Source of the DNA: an uncultured Bacilli bacterium
GTDB lineage: Bacteria > Bacillota_I > Bacilli_A > ML615J-28 > CAG-313
Length of the DNA stretch: 36,529 nt
Assembly: GCA_944326155.1 (NCBI GenBank)
Contig: CALVCV010000013.1
Span: forward strand, 1 to 36,529
Direction of reading: 5' to 3'
Shown: positions 29,182 to 32,952 of the stretch, piece by piece
Layout of the letters: each line of letters begins with the position of its first letter
Position numbering within the stretch: position 1 is the first letter of the stretch
The notes under the pieces: model-generated
Databases searched by the model: none
Told to the model about the DNA's origin: nothing
The model's input: the letters and a program-made list of their open reading frames with translations, nothing else
Program-made: the position numbers and the translations under genes

Positions 29182-29210
29182 TTTACAAAAAAATCAATTC
29201 ATGATATAAT
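29182..29210 (+). promoter_or_regulatory. Promoter of the tandem membrane-protein pair
   Basis: TTTACA (29182-29187), a 17-base spacer and TATAAT (29205-29210) preceded by TGA, giving an extended -10. The 5' untranslated region is about 60 bases. Confidence 0.75.
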
Positions 29211-29277: not shown

Positions 29278-30900
29278 ATGCTATCGAAAAAGCAAAAAAT
29301 TATTATGGCAATTTTGGGCTCAATAGGTATTTTATTTGGACTAGTCGTAGCAGTTCCATTTAGAGCTATTCCTGGCCTTAATGAAGTCAAAAACATTTTG
29401 ACAATTGAATTGATAATTAAATTAGTATTGGGAGTACTAACACTTTTACTTGTAATTTATCCGTTTGTAAAGAAATATAAACTGGTTCAGAGTTATCGTG
29501 AACATTCAAAAACAATAATTGTAATGTGCTATTTTCCCATTTTTGTCTATATTTTTGGGTCGGTAGTTAACGTAATTTACACATTGTCTTTTGATTACAC
29601 TTCTATAGCAATGTTAAGTACTTTATCTGATAAATTATTGGGAATTGTTGTTGCGGTATTAACTGTTTATTTAGTTTTTACTATTTATTGTCTTGTTAGA
29701 ATCCAAGATATTGTGGCAAGATTAGATAAAGGATCTAATATTTTATTTGATAGTTTTATGCTAGTAATTTATATTTGCTTTGTAATTTTACTATGGCGTA
29801 CAAACTACGCATACAATCGCGCATATTCTACAGTTGATGAATATTTTGTTGGTAGCCCATTATTATTCTGCATTTATATTGCATTGTTTATTACAATAGT
29901 ATGTGCTTTTAAATATCTTTTTGTTACCATCAAAAAAGATAAGACTTTGATTTATTATATTGAAGGTAATTTATTTGATGATTTAATCAGTCAGGCTGAA
30001 TATAATCGTGCTTACAATGATACACTTGATGATTTCGAAAATTATTTTGAAACCAATTACACTGATTATGAAAATTTAGATATTGAAGAAATCGTTTCTA
30101 AAACAGAAGATGTTCCTGCAAAACAAGAAACTCCTATTTCTATTGAAAAAAATATTTTTGCGGATTTAAATGATGTTGATGTTACAGAACTTGCAGAAGT
30201 TGATGAAAAAATTGAACTTGTTGAAACTGATGAGTTAAAAGAGGTTCATCAACAAAAAGATGAAGTTTTAGCACATATTAAGACAAAGAATGAAGCATTA
30301 GCATTAATTCGTGAGAAAAAGAATGGGTTAGAACAAAAAGAAAATGATTTAAAAGCAGCAAAAGATGCATATGATGCTGCCCTTGCTGAATTTACACAGT
30401 TTAAACTTGATTATTCAAATGTAAATGAAGTAGATGAAAAAGAAAATATTAAGAAAGTTAAGAAATTTACACCTACTTTTGAGAAGGTTGTTGAATATGC
30501 CAATAGTTTTAGCGATCGTCAAGGCTTTAAAGTTAATGCTAATCCTAAAGGTACTTTATTAAAATTTTACCTTGGTAAAAAAATGTATTTAGTATTACAA
30601 GCTACTAAGAGCGACTATCGAATAAGTTTTATCACAAATCCTGATAAATTTGTTGAATATGTTACATCAAGACCTGGTGAATTAATTGTACCAAAGAATT
30701 TAAAAGATAATAATTGGATTCGTCTTACAAATAAAGGTAAAGAAGATCCAAAACTAATTCGACAAATTATAAAACAAGCTGTTGAGACTGCTGAAAAACA
30801 ACTTGCTGATGCTGCAGCCGTAAAATTAGCTGAAAAGAAGGCCAAAGCAGCCGAACGTGCAAGAATGCGAGCTGAGCAAAAAGCAAATGCTAACAAATAA
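29278..30900 (+). CDS. Six-helix membrane protein with C-terminal MmcQ/YjbR-like domain (paralogue 1)
   Basis: 540 residues of unrecognised family. Six hydrophobic helices (about 8-26, 41-61, 80-104, 118-140, 159-175, 193-215) are followed by an acidic linker (230-325), a helical coiled-coil-like stretch (325-375), a compact domain (about 400-505) and a Lys/Ala-rich tail ending KANANK. The compact domain reads KGTLLKFYLGKKMYLVLQ, SDYRISFITNPDKFVEYV, PGELIVPK, NNWIRLTN, then a final helix. This order (basic strand, GK-y---l, f---p, kgnW--l, helix) resembles the MmcQ/YjbR or CyaY-like fold; that is fold-level inference only. Its neighbour repeats the same design, so the pair arose by duplication. 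AGAAGGAG precedes the ATG. Confidence 0.6.
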   Translation: MLSKKQKIIMAILGSIGILFGLVVAVPFRAIPGLNEVKNILTIELIIKLVLGVLTLLLVIYPFVKKYKLVQSYREHSKTIIVMCYFPIFVYIFGSVVNVIYTLSFDYTSIAMLSTLSDKLLGIVVAVLTVYLVFTIYCLVRIQDIVARLDKGSNILFDSFMLVIYICFVILLWRTNYAYNRAYSTVDEYFVGSPLLFCIYIALFITIVCAFKYLFVTIKKDKTLIYYIEGNLFDDLISQAEYNRAYNDTLDDFENYFETNYTDYENLDIEEIVSKTEDVPAKQETPISIEKNIFADLNDVDVTELAEVDEKIELVETDELKEVHQQKDEVLAHIKTKNEALALIREKKNGLEQKENDLKAAKDAYDAALAEFTQFKLDYSNVNEVDEKENIKKVKKFTPTFEKVVEYANSFSDRQGFKVNANPKGTLLKFYLGKKMYLVLQATKSDYRISFITNPDKFVEYVTSRPGELIVPKNLKDNNWIRLTNKGKEDPKLIRQIIKQAVETAEKQLADAAAVKLAEKKAKAAERARMRAEQKANANK

Positions 30901-30922
30901 TAGAAAGGAAAGTTAGATAATT

Positions 30923-32710
30923 ATGATTGATAACAAAACATATAGAAAATCTTTATTTATCTTATCTACTATATCAGTAGTTTTAAACATTTTAATGTTT
31001 ATTCCTTTTGGTAAAACTTTTACGAATGCTGAATCATTGATTAAATTTCTTCTTTTACCTATTGTGGTTGGATGTTTAAACCTTGTTATTACGCTTAAGA
31101 AATTTAGTGAATATAGACCAACAAGTAGATTTCAATCTTATGCTAGTTATTTGCCAATTTTCTCATATCTTGTCGCTACTTTTGTTTATGCAATTTTTAT
31201 GATGAATCGTGCTGATCCAATGGCTGTTTTTTCATATAACAAATATATTTTTTTAATGATTGGTTTTGCTATTCTTGCTGTAGGACTTTCTTTCTTACTT
31301 TGTATCATGGATAAAGTCAATTTATATTTAACAAAAAATCAAATTAATGTTTTGGATATTGCTATTTATGTAGCCTTCATTCTCGATGTTATTTTAGTAA
31401 AAACAACCGTTTTAAATCCATATGTTGATGTTGAACTTGCAAACAGTTCTGCTTTAAATATTATCTTTGGTATCGTCATAGGCATAGCTGTATTATATTT
31501 GTTATTTGCAAGAGCATTTAGATTCTATCGAGCAAATGAGGAATTTACAATGCGCAATAAAGATGAATTAATTGAAAAATGGTCTAAAAAACGTGATGAA
31601 GCATATTCAGATGCTGAATTAGTTATTCTATATTCATTACATAATTACGCCAATACACGTTTTGAAATTGAAGATACTGAAAATAAAATTGTAACTCCTG
31701 AAGGATACGTTAGCGTAAATAGTGAAGAACTTACTGAATTAAAGAAAAAATATAAAGATTTAGTTGCTAACAAAAAAGTTGTTGATAAACAACATGAAAA
31801 ATTGAAAGATGAATATATTGCACTTCAAAATAAAGTTAAGTTAGATGTTGCACAAGCAGAATTAGAAGGTTTGAAAAAACAAAAAGATTTATTAGATGCA
31901 AGTATTAAAGAAGAAAACACGCGTTTAGAAGATGATGTAAAACAATATGAAGAAGAATTAGCTGCTTTTGAAGAGAAAAAAGCTCAACTTGAAAAAGAAC
32001 GTACAGCTTTACTTGCCGAACTAAATTTTTCATCAATATCTGAAGCAAGAGAAAAAGAAAGACTAGAAGCTGAGGCTAAAGCGATGAATGCAAGACCTGC
32101 AAGGCCTAAAGTTGAAAAGGTATTTAAACCTTCTTATGAAGACATGATAAATTTTGCTAAAACAATTAAAGGTGAAAATTTAAGTGTTATTAGTAACGAG
32201 GCAGGTACTTCACATAAATTCTTAGTTGGAAAGAAACCATATTTATTATTACAAAAAACCAACAGTGATTATCGTGTTACTTTCTGTGTCAAAGAAGAAG
32301 CTATTATTGATTATTTACAAAGTTATCCTGGTGAAATTTCTGTTGCTAAATCACCAAAAGGTGGCAATTTCTTAAAGATTGCTAATACTGGTGAATTAGA
32401 TGAGGATTTATTAAAAAAGGTTATTTCTGAATCACTTGCAGCTGAACTTGATGCTGAAAAGAAAGCTCAAGCTGCCAAAGATGCTGAAAAGCAAGCAAAA
32501 CTTGATGCAAAAGAACAAGAAAAGCGCAATCGTGAATTGTTAAAAGAAGCTGAAAGAATTGTAGCTAAAGCAAAACGTGAAGAAGAAAAAGCAGCTTTAA
32601 GAGCAAAACGTGAAGAGGAAAAGCAAGCAGCAAAACTTGCTGCTGAAGAAGCTAAATTAGCAAAAGCTACTTCAGAAAAAAATACTAATTCAAATGAAGA
32701 AGCAGCATAA
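30923..32710 (+). CDS. Six-helix membrane protein with C-terminal MmcQ/YjbR-like domain (paralogue 2)
   Basis: 595 residues, sharing the architecture of the gene just upstream (22-base gap, same transcript). Membrane helices lie near 10-28, 39-57, 75-95, 107-128, 142-160 and 178-196. A long charged coiled coil (about 265-395) carries many Lys/Glu/Leu heptad-like stretches. The compact domain (about 400-505) has SHKFLVGKKPYLLLQ, SDYRVTFCVKEEAIIDYL, PGEISVAK and GNFLKIAN, aligning with the first copy. An exaggerated Lys/Ala/Glu tail (506-595) follows. Membrane sequences of the two copies differ much more than the C-terminal domains. Function is unknown; the build suggests a membrane scaffold that holds a small ligand- or nucleic-acid-binding domain in the cytosol. 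A ribosome site AGAAAGGAAAG precedes ATG 30923. Confidence 0.6.
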   Translation: MIDNKTYRKSLFILSTISVVLNILMFIPFGKTFTNAESLIKFLLLPIVVGCLNLVITLKKFSEYRPTSRFQSYASYLPIFSYLVATFVYAIFMMNRADPMAVFSYNKYIFLMIGFAILAVGLSFLLCIMDKVNLYLTKNQINVLDIAIYVAFILDVILVKTTVLNPYVDVELANSSALNIIFGIVIGIAVLYLLFARAFRFYRANEEFTMRNKDELIEKWSKKRDEAYSDAELVILYSLHNYANTRFEIEDTENKIVTPEGYVSVNSEELTELKKKYKDLVANKKVVDKQHEKLKDEYIALQNKVKLDVAQAELEGLKKQKDLLDASIKEENTRLEDDVKQYEEELAAFEEKKAQLEKERTALLAELNFSSISEAREKERLEAEAKAMNARPARPKVEKVFKPSYEDMINFAKTIKGENLSVISNEAGTSHKFLVGKKPYLLLQKTNSDYRVTFCVKEEAIIDYLQSYPGEISVAKSPKGGNFLKIANTGELDEDLLKKVISESLAAELDAEKKAQAAKDAEKQAKLDAKEQEKRNRELLKEAERIVAKAKREEEKAALRAKREEEKQAAKLAAEEAKLAKATSEKNTNSNEEAA

Positions 32711-32717: not shown

Positions 32718-32727
32718 AATCGCAAGA

Positions 32728-32952
32728 TAAAGACTAGTAAAATTATTTATCTTTTTAGAGAGTGATTGGTTGGTGAAAAATCATAAGTAGATAATTTGAA
32801 GCTCCTTTATAGAGGAACTAATCCTTCCCGCAAAAAATGAATTGCGTTAAAAAATATAAAGTGACAATCAAGTTTCTTTTACTTGGTTGTAATTAGGATG
32901 GTACCACGTTTAAAATCGTTCCTTGTTGCTTGGGGGACGATTTTTATTTTTG
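32728..32952 (+). promoter_or_regulatory. T-box riboswitch (tRNA-Ala) upstream of alaS
   Basis: AGAGAGTGATTGGTTGGTGA (32757-32776) is the conserved AG-bulge and apical region of Stem I. TTTGAAGCTCC places the specifier codon GCT (Ala) at 32801-32803. The T-box sequence AATTAGGATGGTACCACG (32891-32908) differs from the consensus GGGTGG at one base. The terminator stem is AAAATCGTTCC (32912-32922) with GGGACGATTTT (32934-32944), followed by a T-rich run. Uncharged tRNA-Ala would bind the specifier and the T-box bulge, form the antiterminator and switch alaS on. Confidence 0.95.

Follow-up and report, generated by a model that had tools for sequence, protein, structure and literature searches.

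A tandem pair of six-helix membrane proteins with a predicted YjbR-fold domain in an uncultured Bacilli lineage and single-copy relatives in Izemoplasmatales

Organization of the locus

The window, that is, the whole stretch of 36,529 nucleotides analysed here, corresponds to contig 13 of a genome which measures 1.44 Mb and has a completeness of 96%. At positions 29278-32710 it carries two open reading frames, A and B, which lie on the plus strand, are separated by 22 bases and are the only two copies found in this genome. The initial annotation had read them as tandem related membrane proteins. This is borne out, as both reading frames are in place and the proteins are paralogous with a nearly full-length alignment. 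The features of the locus are as follows.

29182..29210, plus strand: promoter of the A-B operon, TTTACA - 17 - TATAAT, the -10 preceded by TG; ranks first among the promoter-like sites of the region (11/12) and is the same in sequence in front of A in four congeners and in genome G010
29278..30900, plus strand: open reading frame of protein A, 540 aa; orthologues in 5/5 genomes of the genus
29278..29952, plus strand: six-helix membrane module of A, residues 1-225; from hydropathy and AlphaFold2 (pLDDT 83); no clear known fold
29953..30063, plus strand: cytoplasmic helix of A, residues 226-262, in which the E-N-AYN-FE positions do not vary between A orthologues; modelled as a helix at 231-260
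30064..30459, plus strand: acidic variable linker of A, residues 263-394; mean identity 28%, 18 Lys/Arg versus 36 Asp/Glu
30460..30786, plus strand: YjbR-fold domain of A, predicted, net charge +10, residues 395-503; 36% identity to the domain of B; the orthologue at locus L022 matches Pfam YjbR (E 0.01)
30787..30897, plus strand: Lys/Ala-rich tail of A, residues 504-540; by composition; missing from Izemoplasmatales relatives
30923..32710, plus strand: open reading frame of protein B, 595 aa; 27% identical to A, E=3e-32
30923..31549, plus strand: six-helix membrane module of B, residues 1-209; from hydropathy; aligns with the modules of A and of Izemoplasmatales
31550..31657, plus strand: cytoplasmic helix region of B, residues 210-245; W, Y and L conserved among B orthologues
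31658..32116, plus strand: charged linker of B, possible coiled coil, residues 246-398; mean identity 26%, heptad-like period not significant
32117..32443, plus strand: YjbR-fold domain of B, predicted, near-neutral, residues 399-507; AlphaFold2 pLDDT 92, pTM 0.85, YjbR structures as top matches
32444..32707, plus strand: Lys/Ala/Glu-rich tail of B, charge-balanced, residues 508-595; by composition, 23 Lys/Arg versus 22 Asp/Glu
32721..32944, plus strand: T-box leader with a terminator-like hairpin in front of alaS, marking the boundary and lying outside the pair; Rfam RF00230 at 32721-32926 (101.3 bits), hairpin at 32912-32944

The promoter in front of A is of the extended -10 type and is kept in congeners. 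Because a T-box leader and a terminator-like hairpin precede alaS, this gene is controlled separately from A and B. The T-box leader is also the sole Rfam match in the window.

The C-terminal domain

A domain of about 105 residues with matching motifs had been noted in both proteins, and all four named motifs are indeed found in A (GKKMYLVLQ, SDYRISF, PGELIVPK and NNWIRLTN) and in B (GKKPYLLLQ, SDYRVTF, PGEISVAK and GNFLKIAN). The structure of the domain was modelled with AlphaFold2 for B alone, using 19 aligned sequences, and the domain of A is linked to this model through its 36% identity to B. YjbR structures ranked first in both structural searches, so that the predicted fold is related to YjbR. 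In Foldseek the list is headed by E. coli YjbR, DR2400 and PSPTO_3016 as the top three (E 1.7e-3 to 1.1e-2, probability 1.00). VIA-align gives Z values of 12.1, 11.3, 10.5 and 8.5 to YjbR-family entries (PF04237, DUF419; 2fki, 2a1v, 3h9x and 2kfp), the three best of which match over 103-112 residues with Z 10.5-12.1. The next family is DUF1801/YdhG-like (2oc6, 9t2w), soluble proteins of a related fold which score below YjbR with Z 7.8 and 7.0.

At the level of sequence, Pfam YjbR is the commonest family match and is obtained for 8 of the 19 relatives' domains (best E 1.4e-4, 22.9 bits). The curated cut-off of PF04237, 30.1 bits, is reached by no member, and neither window domain is among the matches listed. 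The single weak Pfam match to DUF1801 comes from window A (14.3 bits, E 0.056), does not reach the curated cut-off of 27.2 bits, and has no counterpart listed for B. Comparison of profiles with nine YjbR sequences from other genomes gave a weak match, in register with the profile end at the C-terminal Trp motif. This motif, K-x-x-N-W, is kept in A and in most relatives; window B has GGNFLKI, without the Trp, and the profile-profile match there is weak. A search of the PDB sequences with the domain profile returned weak matches alone (best E 0.24), with no YjbR among them, and no other YjbR was found in the window's genome. Since no member reaches the Pfam cut-off, the domain is, as modelled, a distant YjbR-fold relative and not a formal member of PF04237. 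The earlier designation as MmcQ/YjbR-like is thus right for the fold, for which YjbR/DUF419 entries are the best structural matches and Pfam YjbR the commonest one, and does not extend to membership of the Pfam family.

The YjbR/MmcQ proteins found here are soluble, standing alone or fused to soluble domains (see also PMC7641849), whereas the domain of A and B sits on a six-helix membrane module. YjbR domains do occur in larger proteins, namely in the MmcQ/YjbR-EVE and DUF1831-MmcQ/YjbR fusions which are common in Firmicutes (PMC7641849). Unlike A and B, however, these fusions are soluble, carry a modified-base reader and lie near defence genes. Searches of Pfam and NCBIfam with full-length A and B found no described family, in agreement with the initial annotation, and with the PADLOC models neither A and B nor three relatives gave a match at E up to 0.1. 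A literature search for a membrane-bound YjbR domain, which covered few subscription journals, found no paper. The kind of domain is known; the architecture and the gene pair appear to be undescribed.

Membrane module, linker and tail

Hydropathy predicts six membrane segments per protein, and the distribution of Lys and Arg in A and B places both the N- and the C-terminus inside. An AlphaFold2 model of residues 1-262 of A, for which 30 related modules were aligned, has a pLDDT of 83 and contains six membrane-length helices and an extra helix at 231-260, whose core positions are invariant among the A orthologues. The six N-terminal helices first proposed from the sequence are therefore confirmed by hydropathy for both proteins and by the model for the N-terminus of A.

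No clear known fold emerged when structures were searched with the membrane module. GPCR and receptor entries appear among the matches without being prominent (best Foldseek E 0.09, best Z 7.0), and we read this likeness as generic helix packing. The helices match Ferric_reduct, DUF6057, AmaP, Tetraspanin and other families below the cut-offs, with different families for different proteins; we ascribe these matches to composition.

It could be imagined that the domain binds a nucleotide, a metal or a lipid, as suggested for the CyaY-like fold group to which YjbR belongs (PMC7641849), and that it controls a transporter or channel for which the six helices form the pathway. However, the membrane module has no clear match to a transporter or channel, and P27, E44, K48 and P87 are its only positions which are nearly invariant across all lineages. 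Moreover, the functional residues of CyaY are not conserved in YjbR (PMC7641849). We consider a small-ligand or metal protein of this type improbable.

The linker is the least conserved part of A and B. In A a hydrophobic period of 3.5 residues stands at about the 5% level of shuffled sequences, which is marginal, and in B a heptad-like hydrophobic period was not significant against shuffles. From the proposed charged or coiled-coil section we therefore retain a charged, in A acidic, variable linker and regard the coiled coil as tentative. Likewise, the Lys/Ala-rich tail is present in A and B but does not belong to the core of the proteins: its net charge is +5 in A and balanced in B, and the Izemoplasmatales proteins terminate directly after the domain. 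Tail length varies widely among relatives. In genome G008 the tail of the B protein (L030:8559-9700) consists of several hundred residues of repeats like KEKEKLAAQKA.

Distribution and gene order of the pair

Tandem pairs also occur across relatives. Each of the five genomes of the genus has the A-B pair, as do G008, G009 and G010, which represent three other genera of the family, and the two genes are adjacent wherever both are found. The usual order is what we take, from the families of the products, to be polC, a Bax-inhibitor-like gene, gapA, an AI-2E transporter gene, A, B, alaS, ruvX and a yrzB-like gene. In genome G006 (97% complete) the AI-2E gene directly adjoins alaS at a distance of 301 bases, with the site otherwise identical, and no copy of A or B was found elsewhere in the genome. 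A and B are thus either both present or both missing.

A different arrangement is realized in G005, where one protein of 710 aa combines two membrane modules with one domain. Its first half prefers A (85 versus 58 bits) and its second half neither (52 versus 50). In the other family of the order, single-gene relatives are found in 3 of 28 genomes, one of which also has a single-helix version. The designation as a candidate undescribed system is hence fair for the A-B pair in the family of the window; other lineages carry one gene.

The single-copy form in Izemoplasmatales

When the whole class was searched with a profile, the domain turned up in one more family. Most of the named records of this family belong to Candidatus Izemoplasmatales or to unplaced Bacilli and Tenericutes, and they include the complete genome of Mycoplasmatota strain zrk2 (CP076020.1). 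These are wall-less bacteria. Their proteins have the six-helix module in common with A and B, including the four nearly invariant residues, and carry the domain at the end. In family f24 of Izemoplasmatales a match is present in 32 of 34 genomes, the two without being 63% and 77% complete; in family f17 all seven match in the domain, and family f9 gave no match. A scan of named genomes with B alone gave no match.

The upstream sequence is readable for 17 Izemoplasmatales copies, and every one of them has TTGAC(A/T)-17-TA(T/A)AAT before the start, a pattern which occurs 0.15 times per kb in the same loci. Near-consensus promoters, here and in the congeners of the window, together with the near-universal presence of the gene in the Izemoplasmatales family suggest that A and B are steadily expressed. 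The neighbours in Izemoplasmatales are a divergent TetR-type regulator, an acyl-CoA ligase and in many cases lipoate ligase and glycine cleavage genes. As these differ from the neighbours in the window's family, gene order gives no functional partner.

The layout of a membrane part followed by a putative DNA-binding domain, and the divergent orientation to a TetR-type gene in Izemoplasmatales, would suit a one-component membrane-bound regulator, in which the helices sense a membrane signal and the double-wing domain binds promoter DNA. We think this unlikely. The promoters are steady and near-consensus, and the operator search upstream of the Izemoplasmatales genes found no shared palindrome. 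In addition, a fast-evolving membrane module joined to a frozen domain is the reverse of what a lineage-specific regulator with changing targets would show.

Conservation and evolution of the domain

It had been claimed that the domain is more conserved than the helices and hence carries the function. Between A and B within one genome, the helices are 22-29% and the domains 31-46% identical. Among orthologues within the window's family the difference is small, with 40 versus 44% for A and 33 versus 40% for B. It is large in nine Izemoplasmatales proteins, where the domain reaches 79% identity and has 64 residues which are invariant, as against 35% and 12 for the membrane module. This disparity in Izemoplasmatales is the best evidence for the claim, and the view of the domain as the working part of the protein is well supported by it.

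The strong conservation would also suit a quite different role, that of a protein scaffold. Here the YjbR-fold domain would have turned into a protein-binding adaptor which, without any nucleic acid, keeps at the membrane a conserved cytoplasmic complex that serves division, shape, the ribosome or the envelope. A conserved protein partner could explain the extreme conservation of the domain in Izemoplasmatales, and the neutral B domains and a near-universal, steadily transcribed gene would fit as well. The weak structural matches include type III secretion chaperones of the same fold group, which bind proteins. On the other hand, the domain of A is strongly basic, and the neighbourhoods contain no co-occurring partner gene. 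We regard a scaffold as a possibility to be taken seriously, at distinctly less than even confidence.

Trees of the membrane module separate A and B into two clades with full support, so that the duplication predates the genera. The domain trees disagree with this: in G008 and G009 the A and B domains cluster according to genome rather than gene. A tree constrained to agree is worse by 18 log units (p-AU 0.051, short of significance), which suggests that the A and B domains may have been homogenised by gene conversion in these two genomes.

A possible role as membrane anchors

As the best explanation we tentatively suggest that A and B are a steadily made pair of membrane anchors which act together, and that the YjbR-fold domain grips a cytoplasmic partner, likeliest a nucleic acid; our confidence in this reading falls short of even. 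Both proteins would be co-transcribed and steadily expressed as inner-membrane anchors. The six helices would hold each protein in the membrane such that its two ends face the cytoplasm, and the linker would serve as a stalk which carries the domain on the cytoplasmic side, where, as the working part, it could bind its partner. The reading as anchor and stalk suggests itself because of the six helices, the positive-inside pattern and the variable linker.

Most likely A and B would form one complex, with the strongly basic domain of A as the main binder and the neutral domain of B as a diverged partner. That they act together is suggested because they are adjacent wherever both are found, are both missing in G006, and because two membrane modules are fused in one protein in G005. 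Against such a partnership, the fused protein is without one of the two domains and its modules are not cleanly A plus B.

The nature of the partner is our guess. YjbR has been predicted to bind DNA from its fold resemblance to the double-wing DNA-binding domain of the phage T4 factor MotA (PMC7641849); DNA binding by YjbR itself is thus a structural prediction. In our comparison the MotA C-terminal domain (1kaf, 5jlt) has a similar arrangement, with Z 5.7 and 5.3, a weak structural match without a shown sequence relation, and MotA, unlike A and B, is a soluble phage transcription factor. Because of the double-wing fold and of the charge of the A domain, which lies between +9 and +13 in G010 and the genus, we take a nucleic acid as the likeliest single partner, which would amount to tethering the nucleoid or RNA to the membrane. 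The charge of A fits this role and that of B does not: the B domains range from -3 to 0 in the same genomes, and window B lacks the Trp of the C-terminal motif. The basic charge of A is also compatible with binding lipid or acidic proteins. Weighing these points, we rank tethering to nucleic acid slightly above a protein scaffold. The most specific version, in which reduced-genome Bacilli and Izemoplasmatales steadily express a tether from the membrane to the nucleoid or to RNA, and in which this tether uses a YjbR double-wing domain and was duplicated to a heteromeric pair in the window's lineage, seems doubtful to us as a whole.

YjbR domains are widespread. As their binding is so far predicted, the near-universal and constrained membrane-anchored form in the Izemoplasmatales family offers a natural setting to find the partner. 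If this partner were DNA, the proteins would represent a novel means by which bacteria with small genomes attach their nucleoid to the membrane.

Variant loci

Several loci deviate from the common arrangement. In G014 (65% complete) the A domain is a separate open reading frame of 232 aa; its start codon and the stop codon of the membrane part overlap (TAATG), and a sequencing error is possible. At this locus (L028:7026-9031) the membrane part has many EEAPAEE repeats and is followed by the reading frame for the coiled coil and domain. We did not count as a relative a repetitive protein of 3568 aa from G391, whose match to the domain is weak (E=7.6e-6). The single-copy relative in G015 (L119:4460-5998) is followed by a gene which, judged by eye, resembles a GdpP-type c-di-AMP phosphodiesterase. 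In G002 (L023:13334-16483) three extra genes, by their look an ABC ATPase and membrane proteins, are located between gapA and the AI-2E gene, upstream of the pair.
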